Shown here: positions 2,130 to 26,009 of the stretch, in pieces
Position numbering within the stretch: the first letter of the stretch is position 1
Layout: the number at the start of each line of letters is the position of its first letter
Source: Paludibaculum fermentans
GTDB lineage: Bacteria > Acidobacteriota > Terriglobia > Bryobacterales > Bryobacteraceae
Length of the DNA stretch: 64,000 nucleotides
Reading direction: 5' to 3'
Assembly: GCF_015277775.1 (NCBI RefSeq)
Contig: NZ_CP063849.1
Span: 6,153,501-6,217,500, forward strand
The notes under the pieces: generated by a model
Databases searched by the model: none
The model's input: the letters and a program-made list of their open reading frames with translations, nothing else
Told to the model about the DNA's origin: nothing
Program-made: the position numbers and the translations under genes

Positions 2130-3530
2130 ATGAAGCGCTGCCTGATGATCCTTCTCGCCGCTGGAGTCATGCCAGGGGTTCAAGGCGGTGATCGGGTGTA
2201 CACGGCGGATCAGACGTCCAACACTGTCTCCGTCATCGACCCCGCGACCAACAAGCTGCTAGGTTCCATTCACCTGGGAGAGGATGTGCCCACGGCATTG
2301 CTGCCTCTGTATCGGGGTGAGCTGCTCGTTCATGGACTTGGCTTTTCGTCGGATCACAAAACCCTCAGCGTGGTCTCCATTGGATCGAATTCGGTCACCT
2401 TGATCGATACCGAAACAAACACGGTGAAGGGGAAGATCTACCTTGGCCGCTCACCGCATGAGGCCTTCTTCCGGCCGGATGGCAAGGAACTCTGGGCGGC
2501 CGTCCGCGGCGAGAACTACGTCAGCGTCATCGATCCGATTCGCCGCAAGGAGATCCGCCGGATCGAGACCGCCAACGGCCCGGGCATGGTGCTCTTCCGG
2601 CCGGACGGCAGGTACGCCTTTGTGCCGTCCAGTTTCACACCCGAGCTGGATGTGATCGAGGTCTCGACTTATCGCGTCGTTGCACGCATCCCGCAAGTGA
2701 GTCCATTCTCACCGAATCTGGCGGTCGATCAGGACGAGGTTTGGCTGACCTTAAAGGACTCCGGCAAAACCCAGGTGGTGAGCGCGAAGCCTCCCTTTGC
2801 CACAACCGCCGTCCTCGAGACCGGGCCGATCACCAATCACGTCACCTTCCTCTCCAACCCGAATGGCCGTTTTGCTTACGTCTCGGTCGGGGGCAAGGAC
2901 CAGGTGCTGGTCTACCGGCGTGTTCAGGGTTCGACACCCCAGCTTGTGTCGACGATCAAGACCGGCGACCTGCCTCACGGCATTTGGGGGTCTGGAGATG
3001 GCAGCCGTGTCTATGTTGGGCTTGAGAACGGTGATGCCGTCCAGGCGATCGACACCGGCTCGAACGAGATCATCGCCACGATACCGGTGGGCCAGTTGCC
3101 GCAAGCCCTGGTCTATGTGCCACAAGCAACCTCCTCCGATCGCGGTACGGCCAACCTGAAACCGCTCGAACATGCGGCAGAGGCGTTGCATCTCACGTTG
3201 GCCGCCCCCGAAGGTAGCGGTTCCACCGCCCATGCCAGCGTCTCGATCAATTCATTGGGGCTTATCGATAGTCTGCAAATTGCTGCCACGGGGCTTACCC
3301 CGGGCAGCAGATATCGCCTGGTGCTGGTGGGTGGCACCGAACCGCAGGACCTCGCCACTTTCACCGCGGGCATTGGCGGGGTCGCGATCACTCAAACGCT
3401 TGGGCCCCTGAAGCGCGTCGTCGCCGGCTCACACGCCACGGCCCCATTGCAGCTCGAAGTGAGATCGGCCGAGCCCGGCGCATCGCAGGTGGTGCTGCAG
3501 CAGGCCAGGCCCATCGTGGATCAACAGTAG
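2130..3530 (+). CDS. Secreted YVTN-type beta-propeller protein
   Basis: Encodes 466 residues from the ATG at 2130; an in-frame ATG at 2088 lies inside the upstream gene and is less likely. A signal peptide (KRCLMILLAAGVMPGVQGG) is followed by repeated strands of the form VSVIDPATNKLLGSI, VTLIDTETNTVKGKI and VSVIDPIRRKEIRRI, the YVTN/NHL-like propeller repeat, about six or seven blades to near residue 345. The C-terminal ~110 residues form a separate beta-rich, Ser/Thr-rich domain with no recognised family. Such proteins are periplasmic or surface scaffolds. It lies between the DUF305 and SDR genes on the same strand, suggesting one transcript. Confidence 0.85.
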   Translation: MKRCLMILLAAGVMPGVQGGDRVYTADQTSNTVSVIDPATNKLLGSIHLGEDVPTALLPLYRGELLVHGLGFSSDHKTLSVVSIGSNSVTLIDTETNTVKGKIYLGRSPHEAFFRPDGKELWAAVRGENYVSVIDPIRRKEIRRIETANGPGMVLFRPDGRYAFVPSSFTPELDVIEVSTYRVVARIPQVSPFSPNLAVDQDEVWLTLKDSGKTQVVSAKPPFATTAVLETGPITNHVTFLSNPNGRFAYVSVGGKDQVLVYRRVQGSTPQLVSTIKTGDLPHGIWGSGDGSRVYVGLENGDAVQAIDTGSNEIIATIPVGQLPQALVYVPQATSSDRGTANLKPLEHAAEALHLTLAAPEGSGSTAHASVSINSLGLIDSLQIAATGLTPGSRYRLVLVGGTEPQDLATFTAGIGGVAITQTLGPLKRVVAGSHATAPLQLEVRSAEPGASQVVLQQARPIVDQQ

Positions 3531-3546
3531 TCAAAAGGAGAATCAG

Positions 3547-4302
3547 ATGGCACGCAAGCTGGAAGGCAAGATCGCCTTGATCACAGGCGGCAGCAGTGGG
3601 ATTGGACTGGCCACCGCAAAAGACTTCGCCGCGGAGGGCGCGCATGTCTATATCACCGGCCGGCGCCAGAGTGAGCTGGATCGGGCCGTTGACGAGGGCG
3701 GCGGACAGATCACCGCGATCCAGGGCGACGTGTCCAGAATGGAAGATCTCGACAGACTCTTCCACGTCATTCAGACAGAACAAGGCTGGCTCGATGCCGT
3801 CTTCGCGAACGCCGGGACGGGTGGGTTCGCCCCTCTGGGGCAGATCACTGAAGAGCACTTCGACAAACAGTTTGACCTGAACGTCAAAGGCTTGTTGTTC
3901 ACCGTGCAGAAGGCCTTGCCGCTGCTACGCGACGGGAGTTCGATTGTATTGAACGCCTCGATCGTGTCCGTTAAGGGCAACCCGGCTTTCAGCGTCTACA
4001 GTGCCACCAAGGCGGCGGTCCGCTCCTTTGCACGCACCTGGGCGGTGGATCTGCGGGAACGCCGGATTCGAGTGAATGCCATCAGTCCCGGCGTCGTCCC
4101 GACGCCCGGGTACAACACCAGCCTGGGGATGAATGAGCAGCAGGTGGACGAGTTTGTGCAAGGCTCACTCGCCAGTATTCCGCTCGGCCGCGCCGGCACA
4201 CCAGAGGAGATTGCGAAGGCCGTGACTTTCCTGGTCTCCCCGGATAGCAGTTACATCAACGGAATTGAGTTGTTTGTGGACGGTGGGCTGGCACAGATCT
4301 GA
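3547..4302 (+). CDS. Short-chain dehydrogenase/reductase (classical SDR)
   Basis: Encodes 251 residues with an AAAAGGAGAATCAG ribosome-binding region directly upstream. The NAD(P)-binding motif TGGSSGIG is at residues 13-20, NAG appears as NAGTGGFAPLG, and the catalytic YSATK (Y-x3-K) follows a serine in NASIVS. The C-terminal SxxSSYINGIELFVDGG is typical of classical SDRs. The TGR after the first helix favours NADP(H). The substrate cannot be read from the sequence. It starts 16 bases after the propeller gene and faces the convergent hydrolase at 4464. Confidence 0.93.
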   Translation: MARKLEGKIALITGGSSGIGLATAKDFAAEGAHVYITGRRQSELDRAVDEGGGQITAIQGDVSRMEDLDRLFHVIQTEQGWLDAVFANAGTGGFAPLGQITEEHFDKQFDLNVKGLLFTVQKALPLLRDGSSIVLNASIVSVKGNPAFSVYSATKAAVRSFARTWAVDLRERRIRVNAISPGVVPTPGYNTSLGMNEQQVDEFVQGSLASIPLGRAGTPEEIAKAVTFLVSPDSSYINGIELFVDGGLAQI

Positions 4303-4317
4303 GTTGCCGCGCCGGCC

Positions 4318-4348
4318 GGGCCGCCCCATTTACCTAATTGGGGCGACC
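4318..4348. terminator. Possible bidirectional hairpin between convergent genes
   Basis: CGCCCCA at 4322-4328 pairs with TGGGGCG at 4339-4345 across a ten-base loop, with GC-rich flanks. It lies between the SDR gene and the convergent hydrolase gene. There is no clear T-tract, so intrinsic termination is only plausible. Confidence 0.35.
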
Positions 4349-4463
4349 CGCGGCTTGCGGTGCCAAACACGGCCGGTGGCCCAAAGCTAAGAGTCCTGGC
4401 TACTCCCGGAACCGCGCCAGGCAGCACCGCCCGGCTCGGTCCAGGGTTGCCTCTTCCAGTTGG

Positions 4464-5303
4464 TCACGACGCAGCCGGCACTCCCTGGCTTAGGAAGGCC
4501 AGTAGTTCGTCGTTCACCCGCGCTTTCAAGGTCGAACACATTCCATGCGGCGCTCCTTCGTAAATCTTGAGGGTAGCGTTGCGGATGATTTTTGAAGAAA
4601 GCAACGCGGAGGCGCCGATTGGCACAATCTGGTCGTCATCGCCGTGGAGAACGAGTGTTGGAACGTCGAACCGTTTGAGGTCCGCCGTGAAATCGGTCTC
4701 GGAGAATGCCCGGATGCAATCAAGCGCCGCCTTATGGCCCGCCAGCATGCCCTGGAGCCAGAAGGAATCCCTCAATCCCTGTGAAACCTGCGCCCCGGGC
4801 CGGTTGAACCCATAGAACGGCATACTCAGCTCCCGGAAGAACTGCGACCTGTCCGACAAGACACCCGCGCGGATCTCATCGAAAGCAGACAGAGGCAGCC
4901 CCCCGGGATTCGACGCCGTCTTCAGCATCAGCGGCGGCACCGCGCCGATCAGCACGGCTTTGGCTACACGGCTGGTCCCGTGACGGCCGATGTAACGGGC
5001 GACTTCCCCGCCGCCTGTGGAGTGCCCGATGTGCACCGCGTCGCGAAGATCGAGGGCCGTCACCAACGCGGCAAGATCATCGGCGTAGGTGTCCATATTG
5101 TTGCCGTCCCACGTCTGGCCGGACCGCCCATGGCCTCGCCGATCGTGAGCGATGCATCGATATCCGCGATCTGCCAGGAAGATCATCTGGTCTTCCCAGG
5201 CATCCGCGCTCAAAGGCCAGCCGTGGCTGAAGACCAGCGGTTGCCCCTGGCCCCAGTCCTTGTAATAGATCGACGTACCATCCGGAGTTGTAAATGTAGG
5301 CAT
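4464..5303 (-). CDS. Alpha/beta hydrolase of the non-haem chloroperoxidase/arylesterase type
   Basis: Encodes 279 residues from the ATG at 5303; the frame continues upstream but homology begins at [17 protein letters not shown]. The nucleophile elbow is GHSTGG with the oxyanion region [11 protein letters not shown], the acid lies in HGDDDQIVP and the histidine in GAPHGM. The [16 protein letters not shown] stretch is characteristic of cofactor-free haloperoxidases (perhydrolases), which are esterases that can form peracids. No signal peptide, so cytoplasmic. Only 26 bases separate it from the MBL-fold gene upstream, so the two probably share a transcript. Confidence 0.9.
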
Positions 5304-5329
5304 TTGGATTCCCTCGTTGACGGATTCAG

Positions 5330-6286
5330 CTAGACACCCATGTAGACCAGCCCGACGAACATGGCGGGCGTGATGAGAAAGTTGCCCCACTTGGCATCGA
5401 AGGCAGCCGTGGGCCGCTCTCCGATGGTCTCATCCAAGGACTTGCCGCGCTTCTTCAGCACGGCTACTTTTTCCCGGATCGTCGCCAGCATGTCGTGGAA
5501 CTCGACGAGATCGGAGTGCCCGCCAATCGCGCCATGCCCGGGGATCACGATCGTCTTTCCAGCGACTGTCTTCGTGTTGGCCGCAGCGGCGCGAATCGAT
5601 CCGTCAATACTGCCTCCCGTGGAGTAGTCGATGAACGGATACACGCCGTTCCACCAGGTGTCCCCTACGTGAATGACGTCCGCGTCGGTGAAGTTCACAG
5701 AGATATCACAGTCGGTATGGGCTGGCCCGTAGTAGTTCAGGGCAATGCCAGTGTTGTTGCGGCGCAGGTTGTGCGTGGTGGCGAATACCGTCTCTGGCAA
5801 CGCACCCTTGGGCGCCGCGGGAAAGGTGTAGTTCCAACCCTCCACGCGTGTGGCGACGGCCAACCGTTTCCTCGTGTTTTCGTGAGCGGTGATGCCCGCG
5901 CCGTCTGAGTGAAGCCAGTCGTTGCCGTCCGTGTGGTCGGTATGCCAATGCGTATTCACGAGGTCCTTGATCGGGTCAGGACTCACCGACTGCAATGCGG
6001 CGGTGAGGGCAGGCCGCGACACCGAAAAACCGGCATCGACCAATAGCTTGCCGTCCTTGCCGGTCAAGACCGCGATGTTCCCCCCTGAACCCTCGAGCAC
6101 CGTAATGCCTCGCCGCAGGGGTTGAACCACAATCTTGGCCTTCGCGGCTGCGTTGACCATTGTCGGGACAATTCCGTCCTCCAACGCCAACAAGGGGCTG
6201 CCGGCCGTAAGAGCCGCGCCCATGGCGGTGCCCGCCACCGCAAGCATCCGGCGCCGCGTAATCGCATATGATTCGGCGTGTCTCAT
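5330..6286 (-). CDS. Secreted metallo-beta-lactamase-fold hydrolase (cyclase/glyoxalase II-like)
   Basis: Encodes 318 residues. The ATG at 6286 is chosen because a strong ribosome-binding site (GAAGGAGACTCACG) precedes it and a twin-arginine leader ([10 protein letters not shown]...) follows. The zinc motif is [12 protein letters not shown] near residue 115, with further ligands in [18 protein letters not shown] and IPGHGAIGG. The [10 protein letters not shown]-plus-GPAHTDGD arrangement recalls quinoprotein-linked and B-type MBL proteins, many of unknown substrate. A Tat-type leader suggests export of a folded metalloprotein. It is upstream of, and co-directional with, the chloroperoxidase-type hydrolase. 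Confidence 0.87.
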
Positions 6287-6491
6287 CGTGAGTCTCCTTC
6301 TATCGTCGAGTGTTGGCTTCAGTGCCAGGTGTTGGAATTTGTCTTCACCGGAAGAACAAGCGAAACCCCGTGCTTGCGCAGGAATGGGGGGCCCGCATCG
6401 ACCAATTCGATGAGGATGCCGTACACTTCCGGCGAAGAACTGTTTTGATGGGCGGCTCGCTGCTGCCGCCCGCCCAATCGGCCATCGAGTT

Positions 6492-7124
6492 CTATGCGTC
6501 GTGCTTCTGATTGAGTTGCTCACGCAGGGCTTTATTCTGCTGCTCCAGTTCCTGGAGACGCCGTTCGAAGGGCTCCAGCGCTTCCTGGATCTGATCAGCA
6601 GTAAAGCGAGGCGTAATGTGCTGCGTGCAGTTCCAATCGAATCCTTCAATCCTGATCACGTAAGCCCGTTCGATCACGGCCTGATAGCCAGGTTCGCGGA
6701 GCCGCTTGATCCAACTGACCAGTTGCTCACCTTCGAAGACCTCCGCCCGCCCCAGTATCTTCAACCTGCCCTGGCTTGGATAGTCGACCAGGATGAGGGC
6801 TACCCGGTTGTCGGTACCAATGTTGCCCGTGCTGACGAACTGCAGATTGCCCCGGAAATCGGCGAAAGCAATCGTCTGATCATCGATCACCTTGAGAAAC
6901 CCCTTGGGGCCACCGCGATGCTGGACATAGGGCCACCCAGTCGCACCTACGGTGGCCATGTAGAAACTGTCCCGCTCGGCTATGAAGGCTGATTCGTCAG
7001 GGCCCAGACGATCAGAGGAGGGCGCCCCCGCCTCCAGCCGGGCATACCGACGCCGGCTGCCATACCTTTCCTGCAGCGCTTTGACAAGCGGGGTGAAAAC
7101 AAGCGATCCGAAGTGATGTGCCAT
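6492..7124 (-). CDS. Pyridoxamine 5'-phosphate oxidase-fold flavin-binding protein
   Basis: Encodes 210 residues. The core FYMATVGATGWPYVQHRGGPKGFLKV followed by FADFRGNLQFVSTGNI and RVALILVDYPSQGRLKILGRAEV is the split-barrel fold of the PPOX/FMN-binding family. Proteins of this subtype typically bind FMN, F420 or haem and reduce small molecules. The final ~40 residues form a predicted coiled coil (QEALEPFERRLQELEQQNKALREQ), suggesting dimerisation. It sits 27 bases after the dehalogenase-like gene on the same strand and is probably in its operon. Confidence 0.88.
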   Translation of the reverse strand: MAHHFGSLVFTPLVKALQERYGSRRRYARLEAGAPSSDRLGPDESAFIAERDSFYMATVGATGWPYVQHRGGPKGFLKVIDDQTIAFADFRGNLQFVSTGNIGTDNRVALILVDYPSQGRLKILGRAEVFEGEQLVSWIKRLREPGYQAVIERAYVIRIEGFDWNCTQHITPRFTADQIQEALEPFERRLQELEQQNKALREQLNQKHDA

Positions 7125-7151
7125 GTCGGGACCAGGCTGTCGTAGCCGCCG

Positions 7152-8051
7152 CTAGCGCGCCGGAGTCCGAGTCGCCAGGAACAGCTCGATTCGTGCCGCG
7201 ATCTCCTCGCCGTGCGTCTCCAGGGCGAAGTGACCAGTGTCGAGCATGTGGGTCTCCACATGCTTGAGATCGCGCTGATATGGAGGGGCTCCATCCGCCG
7301 GGAAGATGTAGTCGTTCTTGCCCCAGACAATCAGTGTCGGGGGCTGATACTGCCGGAAGAAGGCTTGAAACTCCGGATAGAGCGGCACGTTCGTTCCGTA
7401 GGACAGCATCAGGTCCATCTGGATATCCAGATTCCCCGGGCGGTCCAAGCCCACCTGATCCACCAACCAGGTTGTCGGGTCCAGCAGGCTGGTGTCCGCC
7501 ACCCCGTTTTCGTACTGCCAGCGGGTCGACTTGGGATCGACGAGGAAGTGCAGACCGGCGCGGTTCTCGGGCGTCGGATCACCCCAGTATTTCTTGATCG
7601 GATCCCAGAATTCGAGCAACCCCTCTTCGTACGCATTGCCGTTCTGCACAATCAGCGCCTGTACCCGCTCAGGATGCCGCAGTGCCAGGCGATATCCAAC
7701 CGGAGCGCCGTAATCCATGACATACATGGCAAACCTGGTAAGGCCCAGCGCGTGTACAAAGCCGTCCGTGACATTCGCCAGATTCTCGAACGTGTAAGAG
7801 TACTCCTTGTGGTTTGGCATGCTGCTCTGGCCGAACCCCGGGTAGTCCGGAGCCACTACCCGGAACTGTCCGGCGAGCCGCGGGATCAGGTTGCGGAACA
7901 TATTCGACGAGGTTGGGAATCCGTGCAGGAGCAGGATCACCGGAGCCGACTCCGGCCCCGCCTCACGGTAGAAGATGTCCAGGCCGTTCACCTGAACTGT
8001 CCGGTAGTGCACCGGAAACCGGGTGCTTGCCGGCGTTGTCACTGCGGTCAT
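7152..8051 (-). CDS. Alpha/beta hydrolase, haloalkane dehalogenase/epoxide hydrolase-like
   Basis: Encodes 299 residues from the ATG at 8051. This start has GGAG eight bases upstream, while the in-frame ATG at 8066 has none. The oxyanion motif is LLHGFPTSS, and the nucleophile elbow reads VMDYGAPVG, with Asp rather than Ser, as in haloalkane dehalogenases and epoxide hydrolases. The late Asp is in VWGKNDYIFP and the catalytic His in LDTGHFALE. An Asp nucleophile means an alkyl-enzyme intermediate and hydrolysis of C-halogen or epoxide bonds is plausible; the exact substrate is unknown. It is first in a two-gene minus-strand unit, divergent from the AraC gene. Confidence 0.88.
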   Translation of the reverse strand: MTAVTTPASTRFPVHYRTVQVNGLDIFYREAGPESAPVILLLHGFPTSSNMFRNLIPRLAGQFRVVAPDYPGFGQSSMPNHKEYSYTFENLANVTDGFVHALGLTRFAMYVMDYGAPVGYRLALRHPERVQALIVQNGNAYEEGLLEFWDPIKKYWGDPTPENRAGLHFLVDPKSTRWQYENGVADTSLLDPTTWLVDQVGLDRPGNLDIQMDLMLSYGTNVPLYPEFQAFFRQYQPPTLIVWGKNDYIFPADGAPPYQRDLKHVETHMLDTGHFALETHGEEIAARIELFLATRTPAR

Positions 8052-20057: not shown

Positions 20058-21788
20058 ATGCTCGTGTTGTTCCTGCTACTGTCGGACGCCTCGTGCGCCC
20101 TCTGGCCGGCCGATCCGGCCACCGCGGCCTATGCGGCGCTTCGCGAAAACAGGCTCGATGCGGCGGTCGCGGCCTTCCATCTGGCGCTACCCTGCAATCC
20201 TGCCAACGCCAGGATCCGCAAGGACTTCGCTTACGCCCTGCTCCGCACTGGCGATCGCCTCGCCGCCCGCCGCCAGTTTGAAGACGCGTTGCGCCTCGAC
20301 CCATTGGATGACTCCACGGCGCTGGAATGCGCGTTTCTGAGCTTCGAAACCGGCCAGCCCCGCCAGGCACGCCTACTCTTCCTGCGGCTGAAGGACTCAG
20401 TGGATCCTCAGGTGCGCGCCAAAGCTGACCGCGCCTTTGAAGACATCGACGAGCCCCTGCGCACCGGCATCACCCGCTGGCAGGAGGCGCTGCGCCGCGC
20501 GCCCGGCCAGTGGTCGGCCCACGAGGAACTGGCCCGCCTGGCCGAAAAGCGTGACGAACCCGCCCTGGCCGCGGAACACTTCGAGGAGGCCTGGCGCCGC
20601 CGCCCCGGCAATACCGATCTCCTGCTCGACCTCGCCCGCGTCTGGAAGGAAAAGGGCGACGCCTCAAAGGCCCGGTCCGCGCTGGTCACCGCCTGGCGCA
20701 CAGGCTCCCCGCGAGTTGCTGAGTCGGCCCGCGAACAACTGGGCGGCTCGCTGCCCACCGCCACGGAGACCGCCCTGGCCACGCCGCCGTCCTCACCCCA
20801 GCAGGACGATTCCCCCGTTTTCGAAGCCAAGGAGATGGGGGCCCGCTCCCTGGAAAACAGCTACCTGAACGACGCCTTGAAATACCTGACCCAGGCGTAC
20901 CAACAGAATCCGAAAGACGCCGAGGTTCTCTACCAACTCGGGGTCACCAACAACATGCTGCACCGCGACACCGAGGCGCTGCAGTGGTTCGCCTTGGCCC
21001 GCCGCTCGGACGACGCCGAAGTAGCGCCCAAGGCGGCGCAGGCCTATTCCGCCCTGCGCGCCACACGGCCGGGCCTTCACGTCTCCGCATGGTTCGTCCC
21101 TCTTTACTCCTCACGCTGGAACGACGCCTTCCTCTACAGCCAGGCGACCGCCGAGTACCGCCTCGGCCATTCCATCTTTACCCCGTACGTGTCCCTTCGT
21201 TTCCTGGGCGACACCCGCAGCGGCGTGAAGTTCAATGCCTATACCTACTTGTCCGAGACCAACTTCATTGGCGCAGTCGGACTCAAAGCCCGGCTCTTCC
21301 CGCACGCTTACGGCTGGTTTGAGGCCGGAGAGGCTGTTAGCTATCTGGGCCGTCGCCCGAACCTCGGCCTGGCCACCCCGGACTACCGTGGTGGGCTCTC
21401 CTGGTCGAAGGGCTGGGGCCGCCTGTTCGGCTCGCCGGAAGGTGGCTGGTTCACCGAGACCGCCCTCGACGGCATCTACCTCCATCGCCAACAGGACGAC
21501 TTGTTCCTGTACTCCCAAACGCAGTTCGGCTACACCCTGCCCAAGGACGAGCGCGGCCACCAGTTGATGGCCTATTGGAACTTCAATTTCACGGCCGATC
21601 GTCTCGGAGCCTCCTGGGCCAACTTTGCGGAGTTTGGACCCGGAATAAGGGTCCAACTGCCGGGCATGCCGCGCGGCATGGTGCTCCGCTACGACATTCT
21701 TTACGGCAAGTACACAATGCCCGCGGGGTCACGGAATCCCGGCTACTGGGATGTCCGCACTGGACTGTGGTATGCGCTATCTCATTAG
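20058..21788 (+). CDS. Secreted TPR protein with C-terminal outer-membrane beta-barrel
   Basis: Encodes 576 residues. A leader (LVLFLLLSDASCA) precedes TPR repeats: AAYAALRENRLDAAVAAFHLALPCNPANARIRKD, then WSAHEELARLAEKRDEPALAAEHFEEAWRRRPGN, a Pro/Ser linker around residue 235-260, and AYQQNPKDAEVLYQLGVTNNMLHRDTEAL. From about residue 345 to the end the pattern is alternating aromatic/hydrophobic, glycine-rich and barrel-like (SAWFVPLYSSRWND, PYVSLRFLGD, QFGYTLP, GLWYALSH). This recalls the TPR-barrel proteins PgaA, PelB and NfrA, which export polysaccharide. It overlaps the next gene by 17 bases, so the two act together (inference). Confidence 0.8.
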   Translation: MLVLFLLLSDASCALWPADPATAAYAALRENRLDAAVAAFHLALPCNPANARIRKDFAYALLRTGDRLAARRQFEDALRLDPLDDSTALECAFLSFETGQPRQARLLFLRLKDSVDPQVRAKADRAFEDIDEPLRTGITRWQEALRRAPGQWSAHEELARLAEKRDEPALAAEHFEEAWRRRPGNTDLLLDLARVWKEKGDASKARSALVTAWRTGSPRVAESAREQLGGSLPTATETALATPPSSPQQDDSPVFEAKEMGARSLENSYLNDALKYLTQAYQQNPKDAEVLYQLGVTNNMLHRDTEALQWFALARRSDDAEVAPKAAQAYSALRATRPGLHVSAWFVPLYSSRWNDAFLYSQATAEYRLGHSIFTPYVSLRFLGDTRSGVKFNAYTYLSETNFIGAVGLKARLFPHAYGWFEAGEAVSYLGRRPNLGLATPDYRGGLSWSKGWGRLFGSPEGGWFTETALDGIYLHRQQDDLFLYSQTQFGYTLPKDERGHQLMAYWNFNFTADRLGASWANFAEFGPGIRVQLPGMPRGMVLRYDILYGKYTMPAGSRNPGYWDVRTGLWYALSH

Positions 21789-23586
21789 TTGTCTGTTATT
21801 TACATTGACGGCCTGGGGCTCCTGGCCGCGTCTGTTCCAGTCCCTGGGGCTCGACTCCGCCCGTGTGACGATCCTCGAAGGAGCTGTGCCGAAGGAGGGC
21901 TTTCAGCCCGGATCCGCAACCGTCAACGTTCGCAGCGTGACCGATCGCTTCGGCCCCGAACTCCAAATCGTATGGAAAGAGGCGCAAACCGTGCCACGCT
22001 ACGAGTTGCCGGCGGAAGCGATCGTTTTCACCCGCGAACGGTGGACCGGCGCACCCCTGGCGGCTGGCTTCCGGCGCGGTTCGCAAATCGTCTTCTGGAC
22101 GGCTGTTCCTCTCGGCGAGCAGGGTTACGAGCGCTTCCCTTACATCCCCCAGGCATTGGCGGAGCTGGGCCTGCTGCCCCGCGCCGAGAGCCGCGGACTG
22201 TGGGCCTTCTTCGACTCCTCTTACCGCCTGCGCGCCGATCCTGACTACCTTGCCGCCCGCTGGCGCTCCGGTGGGGTCTCTGCCCTCCATATCGCCGCCT
22301 GGCACTACTGGGAACCCGATCCGGAGCGCGATGCCTGGCTCAGCCGCCTGATCGAGGCCTGCCACCGCCACGCCATCGTCACCTACGCCTGGGTGGAACT
22401 CCCGCACGTCAGCGACCGCTTCTGGGCCGATCACCCGGAGTGGCGCGAACAGACCGCCACCGGCCAGGACGCCCATCTCGACTGGCGCAAGTTGATGAAT
22501 CTGAACAATCCAGACTGCGCCGCATCGATTGACCAGGGCCTGCGAGCGCTGCTCCTACGCTTCGATTGGGACGGCGTCAACCTGGGAGAACTCTACTTCG
22601 AGTCCTTGGAAGGCTACCAGAATCCAGCCCGGTTCACGCCGTTCAACACCCAGGTGCGCGACGCGTTCCGCGAGAAGAACGGCTTTGATCCCAAAGACTT
22701 GTACGACCCGCGCTCGAAGCGCTTCCACGCCCGTGACGCTCGTCCCATGCGCCAGTTCCTGGACTATCGCGCCGACCTCGTCGCCGGCCTCCAGGCCGAC
22801 TGGCTCAACCGCATCGAGTCCATCCGCCAGTCGAAGCCCTGGCTCGATCTCGCCTTCACCCACGTTGACGATCGCTTCGACCTCACCATGCGCGACAAAG
22901 TCGGCGCGGACGCTGCCCGCCTGCTGCCCGCAGCCGCCGCGCACCATGCAACGTTCCTTGTGGAAGATCCGGCCACGGTGTGGCACCTGGGGCCGGAACG
23001 CTACGAGGAGATCGCCCGCCGCTACGTCCCGCTCGTAGCCGGCGGGCAACCGCTCGCCATCGACATCAATGTGGTCGAGCGCTACCAGGACGTCTATCCA
23101 ACCAAGCAGCAGACCGGGGCCGAACTGTTTCGTCTGGTTCATGGCGCAGCCACGGCCTTCCCTCAGGTTGCCCTATACTTCGAGAACTCCATCCTCCCGG
23201 TGGATTGGCCGCTGTTGGCCGCCGCCGCCTCTCCAGCCACTCATTCCGTCACCGGTGATGCCTTTGACGTCGAGTCACCCCAAGTGGTCGCTGTCGCGTG
23301 GACCGGTTGCGCTCTGGTGAACGGTGAACCCTGGCGGATCCACCAGGCAGGCCGGCTGCTGCTGCCAGCCGGGCACAGCCAAGTCGAACCTTGTCCGCCA
23401 GGAACGCAACCCGGCCCGCTCCTGCTTGATTTCAATGGCGGAATGGAAAAAGCCGTGCTCCATGACAGTCGTTTGACGGTCACTTACACGGCTCGGACCC
23501 GCGCGATTGCTGTATTGCCCAGTGGTGAGTTCCGCCTGCTACCGGCGGGTCATCACACGGTTACCCTGGGCGCCGGCGAACCTTAG
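21772..23586 (+). CDS. Secreted TIM-barrel glycosidase-like protein
   Basis: Encodes 604 residues from ATG 21772, which opens a signal peptide (RYLISCLLFTLTAWG); an in-frame ATG at 21751 is inside the upstream gene. The centre, residues ~150-420, has repeated alpha/beta units: GGVSALHIAAWHYWEPDP, CHRHAIVTYAWVELPHVSDRFWADHPEW, NNPDCAASIDQGLRALLLRFDWDGVNLGELYFES and LAFTHVDDRFDL. The H-A-x-V-x-A-W and HPEW features recall GHL10-type putative glycosidases. Glutamates in WVELP and GELYFE are active-site candidates. A beta-sandwich-like C-terminal end follows. Coupled to the TPR-barrel gene, it may trim or process an exported glycan (inference). Confidence 0.75.
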   Translation: MRYLISCLLFTLTAWGSWPRLFQSLGLDSARVTILEGAVPKEGFQPGSATVNVRSVTDRFGPELQIVWKEAQTVPRYELPAEAIVFTRERWTGAPLAAGFRRGSQIVFWTAVPLGEQGYERFPYIPQALAELGLLPRAESRGLWAFFDSSYRLRADPDYLAARWRSGGVSALHIAAWHYWEPDPERDAWLSRLIEACHRHAIVTYAWVELPHVSDRFWADHPEWREQTATGQDAHLDWRKLMNLNNPDCAASIDQGLRALLLRFDWDGVNLGELYFESLEGYQNPARFTPFNTQVRDAFREKNGFDPKDLYDPRSKRFHARDARPMRQFLDYRADLVAGLQADWLNRIESIRQSKPWLDLAFTHVDDRFDLTMRDKVGADAARLLPAAAAHHATFLVEDPATVWHLGPERYEEIARRYVPLVAGGQPLAIDINVVERYQDVYPTKQQTGAELFRLVHGAATAFPQVALYFENSILPVDWPLLAAAASPATHSVTGDAFDVESPQVVAVAWTGCALVNGEPWRIHQAGRLLLPAGHSQVEPCPPGTQPGPLLLDFNGGMEKAVLHDSRLTVTYTARTRAIAVLPSGEFRLLPAGHHTVTLGAGEP

Positions 23587-24899
23587 TTCACCCGGACGAT
23601 TTCGCCCTCTTTGACACCTTCGAGAATGGCCACCTGCGTCCCGTTGTTCATGCCGAGGCGCACCTCGCGCTTCTCGAACGTATTGCCATTCTTCACATAC
23701 ACATAGTTCTTGTCGCCGTTCTGCTCGACTGCTGACGCCGGAGCCGCGAGAACGTTGTCGGCCTTGCCCAGCAGTACATCGGCGGAGGCCGAAAGGTCCG
23801 GAATCACGTTCTTGTCCGGATTGACCATTTGCACGCGCACCGGCACGTTGCGAATAAAGAACTGCTGCCGGCCGCCGCTGGTCGCCAGGGCGCCAATCGC
23901 GTAAACCTTTGCATCGTAGTGAGATCCGGGGAAGGCGTCGAGGCTGACATCGGCTGGCTGGCCAATGCGGAAGGTGCTGCTCTCTGACTGGTTGATCTGG
24001 CCTTCCACCTGCATGGTGCGGGCATCGATGATCTTCATGATCGGCTGGCCCGGCCGCACCTGATCACCAACAGCGAGCGTGACCTGGTCGCCGCCCGGCC
24101 GGAACATGGTCTGCAGCACCACCATCCCGTCCATCGGGGCCTTGATCACCATCTTGTCCAGATCGCCCTGTTGGCGCTCGGCGTTGATGTCTTCAATCTT
24201 CTTCGTAATCTCCAGAATCCGCATGTCCGATTTCTGGGAGGCCACCTTCTGAGGAACGTCGGTTTGCTGCTCCTTATAGGCCGCTTCCGCCTCGTCGACG
24301 GAAAGCTGCAGCAGCTCCCTGTCGATATCCATGCGGATTTGAGTTGTACGGAAGTCGAGCTTGGCCTTATCCACAGCCGCCTTGGCCTGGCGGAGGGACT
24401 GTTGCAGGTTCTCCATGTCGAGTTCCTGCTCTACGCGCCGCTTCTTGATGTTGTTCTCGTAGTCCTTGATCGTGGCGATCTGGTCGTCCATGCGATCCTT
24501 CATGGCCTGCGGATCAAACTCCGCCACGACATCGCCCTTTTTGACCATCGAACCCGACGTCGCCAGCTTCAACAGCACCATGTTCGGGTCCACGCCGCGG
24601 AACCGGATGCGCGGAGCAACCATAAAAGCAAACTCACGGGCCGAAGTCTGGCCGGTCACCCGCAACCGCATTTCGATATTGGTCCGGCGAACAGGCACCG
24701 TCTTGGCCACTGCGACGACCGCCGCCTGGGCCGCTCGCGCCGGACGCACCACGTTCCAGTAATACGCACCACCGCCCACCAGTGCCAGCAAGCCCAATCC
24801 TCCCAATATGTTAGGGAGCGGATTCGGCTTCTTGGGCGGTTCGCCCGTATACTTCGGCATCGGCAGCTGATCCGGGTTGGGGTTCGTCATCGCGGGCAT
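23583..24899 (-). CDS. HlyD/RND-type membrane-fusion adaptor (orphan)
   Basis: Encodes 438 residues. One transmembrane segment near residue 30-48 (ILGGLGLLALVGGGAYYW), a first lipoyl half, a long coiled coil from about 125 to 230 (QATIKDYENNIKKRRVEQELDMENLQQSLRQAKAAVDKAKL), the second lipoyl half with VIKAPMDGMVVLQTMFRPGGDQ, and a beta-barrel domain. Adaptors bridge an inner-membrane pump and an outer-membrane channel. No pump or channel gene follows; the gene is convergent with the glycosidase-like gene, overlapping by four bases. It may serve a MacB-type ABC exporter elsewhere, or the TPR-barrel protein. Confidence 0.85.
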   Translation of the reverse strand: MPAMTNPNPDQLPMPKYTGEPPKKPNPLPNILGGLGLLALVGGGAYYWNVVRPARAAQAAVVAVAKTVPVRRTNIEMRLRVTGQTSAREFAFMVAPRIRFRGVDPNMVLLKLATSGSMVKKGDVVAEFDPQAMKDRMDDQIATIKDYENNIKKRRVEQELDMENLQQSLRQAKAAVDKAKLDFRTTQIRMDIDRELLQLSVDEAEAAYKEQQTDVPQKVASQKSDMRILEITKKIEDINAERQQGDLDKMVIKAPMDGMVVLQTMFRPGGDQVTLAVGDQVRPGQPIMKIIDARTMQVEGQINQSESSTFRIGQPADVSLDAFPGSHYDAKVYAIGALATSGGRQQFFIRNVPVRVQMVNPDKNVIPDLSASADVLLGKADNVLAAPASAVEQNGDKNYVYVKNGNTFEKREVRLGMNNGTQVAILEGVKEGEIVRVN

Positions 24900-24987: not shown

Positions 24988-25968
24988 TCAGACAGCGCCA
25001 TGTTTATGGGCATCAAAAGCCCAGGCGCTCTCCACAATCGACGCCAGGGTGTCGTACTTGGGTTTCCAGCCAAATGTTTTCTGCAATTTAGAGGAATCCG
25101 CCACCAGTTCGGCCGGGTCGCCTTCGCGCCGCTCGCCCAACGTGAAGGATGCCTGCCGCCCCGTCACCGTCTCCGCCGCGCGAATCACTTCCATCACCGA
25201 ATAACCCTGGCCCATCCCGGCGTTAAACACGCCGCTGGGGCCACCGGCAAGCAGACTGTCCAGGGCCAGCCTGTGCGCTTCCGCCAGATCCGACACGTGG
25301 ACATAGTCACGCACACAGGTGCCATCCGGAGTCGGGTAGTCGTTGCCAAACACCGTGATCGGCTTCCCCGTCCGGATCGCCCGGAAGATCAGCGGGATCA
25401 GGTGCGTTTCCGGTTCGTGCTCCTCGCCGATTCCGTACTTGCTCTCCGCGCCGCAGGCGTTGAAGTAGCGTAGCGCGACATAGCGCAGCGACGAGCACTC
25501 ATCCAGCCAGCGCAGCGTCGTTTCCGTCATCAGCTTCGATTCCCCATAGGGATTCACGGGCTTCAGAGTCTGGTCTTCGACGATCGGCACATGCTCTGGA
25601 TTTCCATAGACCGCCGCCGTCGAACTGAACACCAGACGCCGCACTCCGTGCCGCCGCATCGTATCCAGCAGCGACAACGAGCCGCCCGTATTGTTGCGGA
25701 AGTACTTTTCCGGCTCGCGCACCGATTCGCCTACCGCGATGAAGGCCGCAAAGTGAATCACCGCATCGAAATGGCCCTTGGAAAAGACGCGGTCCAGCGC
25801 GGCCGTATCGTGCAGATTCACGACGTGCAGGCGGCCCTCCGGCACGTTGTGGGCGTAGCCCTTCGACAGGTCATCCAGTACCTGGACGTCATGGCCCAGG
25901 GAAAGGAGATGGTGTGTGGTGTGCGAACCAATGTAGCCGGCGCCGCCGGTGACGAGAATGCGAGCCAT
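24988..25968 (-). CDS. galE: UDP-glucose 4-epimerase
   Basis: Encodes 326 residues from ATG 25968. Motifs: NAD-binding TGGAGYIGSHTTHHLL at the start, LDDLSKGY, HFAAFIAVGESV, FSSTAAVYG, and the catalytic YGESK (Tyr-x3-Lys), then RYFNACGA and DGTCVRDYVHVSDLAEAH. All are signature GalE residues. It interconverts UDP-glucose and UDP-galactose. The upstream in-frame ATG at 26004 falls inside a terminator hairpin and is not used. The leader lacks a Shine-Dalgarno sequence. UDP-glucose would come from the GalU-like enzyme in this window, if that is active. Confidence 0.95.
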   Translation of the reverse strand: MARILVTGGAGYIGSHTTHHLLSLGHDVQVLDDLSKGYAHNVPEGRLHVVNLHDTAALDRVFSKGHFDAVIHFAAFIAVGESVREPEKYFRNNTGGSLSLLDTMRRHGVRRLVFSSTAAVYGNPEHVPIVEDQTLKPVNPYGESKLMTETTLRWLDECSSLRYVALRYFNACGAESKYGIGEEHEPETHLIPLIFRAIRTGKPITVFGNDYPTPDGTCVRDYVHVSDLAEAHRLALDSLLAGGPSGVFNAGMGQGYSVMEVIRAAETVTGRQASFTLGERREGDPAELVADSSKLQKTFGWKPKYDTLASIVESAWAFDAHKHGAV

Positions 25969-26009
25969 AAAGAAAAGGGTTGGGCCGCCTCGCGGGCGAT
26001 CCAACCCTC
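25969..26009 (-). terminator. Terminator of the glutathione peroxidase gene, abutting galE
   Basis: On the minus strand AGGGTTGG at 26008-26001 pairs with CCAACCCT at 25983-25976, with inner pairing, and is followed by TTTTCTTT directly before the galE ATG. It ends the glutathione peroxidase transcript and leaves almost no leader for galE. Confidence 0.75.

Follow-up and report, generated by a model that had tools for sequence, protein, structure and literature searches.

A TPR-barrel and glycosidase-like gene pair of Paludibaculum fermentans as the probable outer half of an exopolysaccharide system with an unlinked candidate synthase

What would an outer-membrane exporter and a secreted glycosidase-like protein, encoded by overlapping genes, act upon when no polysaccharide synthase is encoded beside them? 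This question is raised by two genes in a 64,000-nucleotide stretch of Paludibaculum fermentans DNA (contig NZ_CP063849.1, forward-strand positions 6,153,501 to 6,217,500; hereafter the window, whose own coordinates are used below), which belongs to a genome of 9.53 Mb. The first gene, P0001 (20058..21788, plus strand, 576 residues), combines tetratricopeptide repeats (TPRs) with a predicted outer-membrane beta-barrel, and the second, P0002 (21772..23586, plus strand, 604 residues), encodes a secreted glycosidase-like protein. An earlier interpretation made from the letters alone, here called the sequence-only reading, had proposed that they form a stripped or unrecognised export-plus-processing module of an exopolysaccharide. 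Our results support this proposal, since relatives of each half adjoin membrane glycosyltransferases elsewhere. We consider it probable that the pair supplies the outer-membrane and periplasmic parts of a synthase-dependent exopolysaccharide system, with an unlinked NfrB-like family 2 glycosyltransferase (GT2) carrying a MshEN domain as its synthase; this distant candidate, with its cyclic di-GMP (c-di-GMP)-type domain, is an addition to the sequence-only reading. Exopolysaccharide export that depends on a synthase is a known kind of system; what sets this one apart is an exporter family and a glycosidase family that the libraries searched do not name, and an apparently split layout.

The basic architecture was borne out, as open reading frames, Pfam (TPR_19, 1.9e-18 for P0001) and AlphaFold2 models agree on a TPR-plus-barrel gene that overlaps a secreted TIM-barrel glycosidase-like gene by 17 bases (21772..21788, plus strand). 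The P0002 frame is open from 21751 to 23586 on the plus strand, and the alternative ATG at 21772, which yields the overlap, lies within the Tyr-Ala codons of the C-terminal WYA of the barrel. Relatives were taken from the best 80 of 160 P0002 relatives in a scan of named genomes. In 74 of these 80 loci, or 74 of the 75 checkable ones, a relative of P0001 immediately precedes the enzyme gene in the same orientation; in five the contig begins within or just ahead of the enzyme gene, and one has no barrel gene. This last locus (L014:9668-11785) is nevertheless placed inside the pair clade of the enzyme tree, as a broken or rearranged pair. The flanks of the pair vary; after the barrel, the most frequent neighbours are acyl-CoA dehydrogenases, in only 20 loci including the window. 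An in-frame enzyme start codon is found at -17 in 67 of the 74 loci compared, and at the tyrosine of WYA 72 of 74 use the TAT codon, which accounts for 689 of the 1818 other tyrosine codons of the same genes; the sequences are related, so that these counts are not independent. The overlapping start looks maintained. A scan for promoters and terminators found none.

Record titles name Acidobacteriota taxa for all of the 80 loci except two, many of them Bryobacterales or Bryobacteraceae, and the assignment of the sampled family to Bryobacteraceae rests on these titles. The two exceptions, titled Arcobacter (L010) and Acidimicrobiia (L080), carry the pair and nest among Acidobacteriota; they are probably mis-binned or mislabelled contigs. 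No P0002 relatives were found on plasmids or in phages. Among 150 genomes of the family, the enzyme was matched in 140, the barrel in 138, both in 137 and neither in 9, the joint counts being tallied by eye and a few matches being fragments at contig ends. The pair is near-core in its family, and the co-occurrence in related genomes, whose absence would have spoken against the sequence-only reading, is observed. In 396 genomes of the phylum, for which only the best 3 candidates per genome by the enzyme profile and the best 7 by the barrel profile were scored, so that misses are possible, the enzyme profile matched 14: three family members, eight strong matches within long reading frames and three weak ones. 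P0001 and P0002 are the only matches to their respective profiles in the P. fermentans genome. Besides the window, the alignments A1, A2 and A3 included 57, 50 and 50 of the 80 loci, with complete genes chosen and near-copies thinned, and key absences of genes at loci were re-examined in six frames.

What, then, does each protein resemble? Residues 20-334 of P0001 (20115..21059, plus strand) form TPR-type helical repeats, expected in the periplasm, according to TPR matches and the DSSP assignment of the model. The AlphaFold2 model (pLDDT 90.1, pTM 0.50) has helices up to residue 334 and then 12 predicted transmembrane strands at 339-575 (21072..21782, plus strand), in agreement with the barrel that the sequence-only reading placed at residues 345-576. 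Hydrophobic/polar alternation along these strands is above that of shuffles (as high in 1 of 5000). The proposed likeness to PgaA, PelB and NfrA calls for caution, as sequence comparison does not reveal the barrel as one of the NfrA, PgaA or Pfam BcsC type. An identity with NfrA was rejected on sequence (hhalign to E. coli NfrA, 1%; no NfrA_C match by Pfam in any of 51 barrels), and so was one with PgaA or BcsC: likeness to PgaA is limited to the TPRs, no BcsC barrel model is matched, and the NCBIfam BcsC match of P0001 (30.4 of 858 bits) is confined to the TPRs. The cellulose exporter BcsC also has TPRs followed by a barrel and was matched by Foldseek with the whole P0001 chain (9b8a, E 6.5e-7 over 586 columns), but at a low TM-score of 0.31. 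Across the 51 barrels, Pfam gave only four chance-level matches, in one member each (best 0.052), and NCBIfam gave none; the barrel was therefore aptly called unrecognised, and P0001 belongs to a predicted exporter family that has no name in the libraries searched. The 50 VIA rows for P0001 span mostly residues 14-137 and hold little information on the barrel.

P0002 begins with a hydrophobic stretch that we take, by eye, for a signal peptide. Its AlphaFold2 model (pLDDT 90.5, pTM 0.90) consists of a TIM barrel (residues 138-487; 22183..23232, plus strand, from DSSP strands) and a C-terminal beta domain (residues 490-600; 23239..23571, plus strand). The best fold match of residues ~140-488 is the C-terminal domain of E. 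coli PgaB (4p7l; Z 26.9, 3.5 A, 317 aligned residues, 12% identity), so that P0002 has the TIM-barrel fold of GH153, the glycosidase domain of PgaB; the Bordetella PgaB glycosidase domain (Z 25.4) and GH42 enzymes (25.3 and below) come next. By sequence, the enzyme was not recognisable as a PgaB (hhalign 0.6%, over 42 columns outside the PgaB glycosidase domain), as a YbcH (0.1%) or as a DigH (4.9%). P0002 itself has no Pfam or NCBIfam match at E<=1. Among 58 members of its family, Pfam matches at E<=1 were to GHL10 in 48 (best 8.5e-9) and to GHL6 in 46 (best 5e-5), while NCBIfam gave none at E<=0.01. Neither Pfam nor the model revealed a deacetylase domain in P0002. On these comparisons, P0002 belongs to a putative glycosidase family without a name in the libraries searched. 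Seven acidic residues (E209, E273, D366, E398, D399, D431 and E471) sit at the C-terminal ends of TIM strands 3 to 8, E273 at the end of strand 4 in the DSSP assignment of the model; all seven are invariant in the 58 pair members and are kept in 8 to 11 of the 11 fused relatives described next. The catalytic residue of PgaB is reported as an aspartate, D474 in the B. bronchiseptica protein (PMC5933820).

The first indication of a glycan context comes from these fused relatives, eight outside the family (L101-L108) and three within it (L141-L143), in which the P0002-like domain is the C-terminal half of a protein of ~1300 residues (L108 has 1659; L142 is cut by the contig; L143 is split over two open reading frames, with an enzyme half of 767 residues). 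They score between E 7e-103 and 7e-133, and in all but one of the 11 the profile match extends to position 662 or 663 (of 664), the exception being cut by the contig, so the C-terminal beta domain of P0002 is present in fused relatives too. A DUF2334-type stretch is found in all 11 loci by tblastn, and Pfam recognises DUF2334 in both proteins scanned. P0002 corresponds to the C-terminal half of a deacetylase-glycosidase protein, which justifies the word stripped. A GT2 gene lies downstream in 10 of the 11 loci, two of these genes being truncated by the contig end; in L142 the contig stops before this point. Six of the 11 loci have wecB, in some cases outside the operon, and five have a small barrel-like gene; these counts include related genera more than once. 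All ten of the acidic residues that are invariant in the 58 pair members are kept in 7 of the 11 fused proteins, and L141, L142 and L143 are without only E209. Unlike the pair, the fused type is one long protein adjoining a GT2 gene, and a glycoside hydrolase tree, unrooted and with two long branches, separates the 11 from the 58.

Some details of the fused loci stand apart. The L107 GT2 shares 41% identity with a Listeria innocua GT2 located after a DUF2334 gene and before a BcsB gene; in the L. monocytogenes pssA-E cluster, pssC and pssE are reported as required for exopolysaccharide (PMC4125290). The L108 protein (L108:7217-12196) has an extra N-terminal GHL6/GHL10 stretch, and its C-terminal glycosidase copy is changed at six of the ten acidic residues, as if inactivated. 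Small secreted, beta-rich-looking proteins of ~235 residues are encoded near GT2 or wecB in L106 (4294-5001), with relatives in L103, L105, L107 and L108; they have no Pfam match in the two members scanned and are possibly the outer-membrane barrel of the fused system.

The second indication comes from the barrel. Its profile matched 5 of the 396 phylum genomes, three of the family and two (L149 and L150) of two other families, and in both of the latter the barrel gene lies directly upstream of an NfrB-like synthase gene. In L149, a barrel protein of 541 residues is followed, after a 27-base gap, by a synthase of 605 residues; in L150, a barrel protein of 434 residues overlaps by 4 bases a synthase of 1114 residues. 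Both barrel proteins align with the P0001 family over nearly their full length (hhalign probabilities of 99.6% and 99.2%). Pfam finds TPRs in the L149 barrel protein and none in that of L150, which has only weak NCBIfam TPR-family matches. The synthases are 39% and 37% identical, respectively, to E. coli NfrB. That of L150 has an MshE-related domain by NCBIfam, without a Pfam MshEN match; its WecB domain is complete (TIGR00236, 366.6 bits at a cut-off of 210.15). The single 1114-residue frame (L150:10582-13926, genome G202) thus represents a natural fusion of an NfrB-like GT2, an MshE-related domain and WecB, and by its predicted domains ties an NfrB synthase to the supply of UDP-N-acetylmannosamine (UDP-ManNAc).

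Does the P. fermentans genome encode a synthase of this kind? The statement of the sequence-only reading that none lies beside the pair was confirmed: tblastn with queries for the fused-type GT2, WecB and DUF2334-type proteins (E 1e-8) and with three NfrB queries (E 1e-5) finds no match in the window. Over the 80 pair loci plus the window, the matches amount to none for DUF2334-type, one for the fused-type GT2 (L030, 31% identity), one for wecB (L082) and one for NfrB-like queries (L023), and with at most one locus per query type a synthase beside the pair was rejected. Elsewhere in the genome, at C1:3586242-3588074, lies a gene for an NfrB-like GT2 with 445 bits against a cut-off of 409 for NF011305, below the stricter NfrB equivalog cut-off (NF008411; 361.8 of 1170). 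Its MshEN domain scores 36.5 bits against a Pfam cut-off of 23.1, and its MshE-related motif is barely above the NCBIfam cut-off (38.9 of 38). NF011305 matches 137 of the 150 family genomes, 132 of them above cut-off, and 1 of 14 controls (E. coli). The processive GT2 motifs (Asp, TED, QxxRW) are intact in all 25 sequences compared, including the E. coli, L149 and L150 proteins. No P0001-like barrel or P0002-like enzyme was found in any of the 10 inspected 20-kb NfrB loci of the family, that of P. fermentans included, nor in 12 shorter ones. Since both the synthase and the pair are orphans, and since barrel relatives adjoin NfrB-like synthases, each may be the missing part of the other.

Taken together, these observations suggest the following mechanism. 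The NfrB-like GT2 would polymerise a nucleotide sugar, which may be UDP-ManNAc, once c-di-GMP binds MshEN; the presence of this domain makes control by c-di-GMP probable. The periplasmic TPRs of P0001 would catch the polymer and hold P0002, which would trim it in the periplasm during export, as the glycosidase domain of PgaB does, and the barrel would pass it to the surface. A precedent for the TPR role is offered by PgaA, whose TPRs are reported to bind poly-N-acetylglucosamine (PNAG) and to modulate PgaB (PMC9384988). We infer in this scheme the partnership with the NfrB-like GT2, the activity of P0002, the substrate and the direction of transport. The polymer is possibly ManNAc-based; the NfrB-WecB fusion of L150 and the six fused loci, out of 11, that carry wecB are no more than suggestive of this. 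In E. coli, the NfrB glycan is reported to require WecB and is proposed to be ManNAc-based (PMC8669472).

The closest known system is NfrBA-YbcH of E. coli, which makes the N4 glycan receptor (NGR; PMC8669469, PMC8669472) and in which NfrA is reported to be an outer-membrane pore with TPRs (PMC8669469). The likeness lies in an NfrB-type GT2 with MshEN in the genome, a TPR-barrel, a periplasmic accessory protein and the link to wecB, which is fused to NfrB in L150 and found near the fused enzyme relatives. Unlike in NfrBA-YbcH, the genes of P. fermentans are split over two loci instead of one operon, the operon layout being found in L149 and L150, and P0002 is glycosidase-like, without detectable likeness to YbcH. 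In PgaABCD, the PNAG system, a TPR-barrel is likewise coupled to a periplasmic enzyme, and the TIM barrel of this enzyme is the closest in fold to P0002; the system differs in that P0002 is without a detected deacetylase domain, no PgaC-like gene was found beside the pair in the GT2 and NfrB searches made, and no sequence likeness was detected beyond the TPRs. A broader reading is that an NGR-like exopolysaccharide, made by the orphan NfrB and the orphan pair, is near-universal in Bryobacteraceae-type Acidobacteriota, P0002 being a new family of glycosidases for NfrB polymers and P0001 a 12-stranded exporter family that replaces NfrA. We put this forward tentatively, as a possibility that is more doubtful than the assignment of the pair to a synthase-dependent system.

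Several observations weigh against the proposed partnership. The synthase and the pair are 2.6 Mb apart in P. fermentans, and linkage is seen in a single pair locus out of 80, where a transposase-like gene separates the two. In that locus, the NfrB-like gene (L023:2-1105, minus strand; 56% identical to the P. fermentans copy) lies ~2.2 kb from the pair (3319-7258, plus strand) on the opposite strand. As ~0.18 such loci are expected by chance, this linkage is a hint only, and given the intervening transposase-like gene it may be a chance rearrangement. Within the family, 131 genomes have both the pair and NfrB, 10 the pair only, 6 NfrB only and 3 neither (Fisher p 0.03), a weak association that is confounded by genome incompleteness and rests on counts tallied by eye; in other words, 6 of the 9 pair-less genomes retain the NfrB-like gene, and 10 pair-bearing genomes are without it. 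P0001 has TPRs, as NfrA does, but a barrel that is not detectably NfrA, and with 12 predicted strands by DSSP, against the 16 reported for the PgaA and BcsC barrels (PMC9384988), its pore would be narrow. MshEN was not seen in the L149 synthase by Pfam or NCBIfam, and a six-frame search found no P0002-like gene at either L149 or L150. The GT2 of the fused loci is not of the NfrB type, its best match in P. fermentans being 30% identical, and the P0001 barrel has no detectable kinship with the small barrel of these loci (0.3%).

Alternatively, the glycan that the pair exports and trims at the surface could be another one, produced by a different core glycosyltransferase or by a Wzx/Wzy system, with the NfrB-like synthase serving something else. 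Besides the retention of NfrB in pair-less genomes, the presence of other glycosyltransferase genes in P. fermentans and of an exopolysaccharide-like cluster, recognised by eye, fits such a view. So does another GT2 of 536 residues (L128:10627-12237), which we take to be CslA-like and which is as near-core as the pair (137 of 150 family genomes); as it has no link to the pair, it was kept solely as a rival. Two further candidates were set aside: the single DUF2334 gene of the genome sits in an apparently different exopolysaccharide cluster, and a GH18-polysaccharide deacetylase-GT2 protein of 1126 residues (L127:9168-12548; C1, near 7.40 Mb) has matches at E<=1e-60 in no more than 26 of the 150 family genomes, too few for a general partner. 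As both barrel relatives from outside the family adjoin NfrB-like synthases, we regard a different glycan as the less likely explanation, although it is the strongest of the rivals.

The GHL10 matches of the P0002 family bring a further role into consideration, that of a glycosidase of the DigH or Cwp19 kind acting on peptidoglycan in the periplasm, with P0001 as an outer-membrane scaffold that places it. E. coli DigH is presumably a GHL10 protein, and its weak alignment is in register with the strand-4 motif of P0002. GHL10 includes Cwp19 (PMC5765458), which is reported as a lytic transglycosylase (PMC6016235), and DigH is reported to cleave denuded glycans (PMC12288456); a near-core status would also suit a peptidoglycan role. 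Far stronger scores, however, connect P0002 with relatives that carry a deacetylase-like domain in the same chain and have a GT2 gene as neighbour, its best fold match is PgaB, and a peptidoglycan enzyme has no obvious need of a barrel encoded by an overlapping gene, all of which makes such a role improbable. It is very unlikely that P0001 works as a channel dedicated to protein secretion, of the Slam or type XI kind, and places P0002 on the cell surface: a TPR-barrel beside a single tightly linked cargo-like gene and a weak TPR_Slam match (15.1 bits against a cut-off of 35.2) recall such channels, but none of the 51 members matches the DUF560/Slam barrel in Pfam, the barrel relatives accompany synthases without a P0002-like gene, and the 11 loci of the fused relatives, in which the C-terminal beta domain of P0002 recurs, contain no P0001-like barrel.

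If the pair does belong to a synthase-dependent system with an NfrB-like synthase, a large group of soil bacteria, most of them not in culture, can be predicted to share a conserved polysaccharide at the cell surface. The split layout is of a kind that operon-based surveys would miss. In the literature searched, whose scope left out most subscription journals, we found no description of NfrB in acidobacteria and no account of such exopolysaccharide, glycosidase or outer-membrane genes in Bryobacteraceae or Solibacter; acidobacteria were also absent among the matches listed for synthase-dependent exopolysaccharides and PgaA. The structure of NGR is given as still unknown in papers of 2021 (PMC8669469, PMC8669472). 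The enzyme, the transport channel and the natural NfrB-WecB fusion offer means to test the nature of the NfrB glycan, and P0002, if specific for the NfrB-made polymer, could become a reagent for identifying NGR.

Two neighbouring genes of the window complete the description of the locus. A gene for an HlyD-type membrane fusion protein (23583-24899, minus strand) adjoins the pair and has related genes in 12 loci including the window, and a sugar epimerase-type gene (24988-26004, minus strand) lies near the pair, with related genes in 5 loci including the window.

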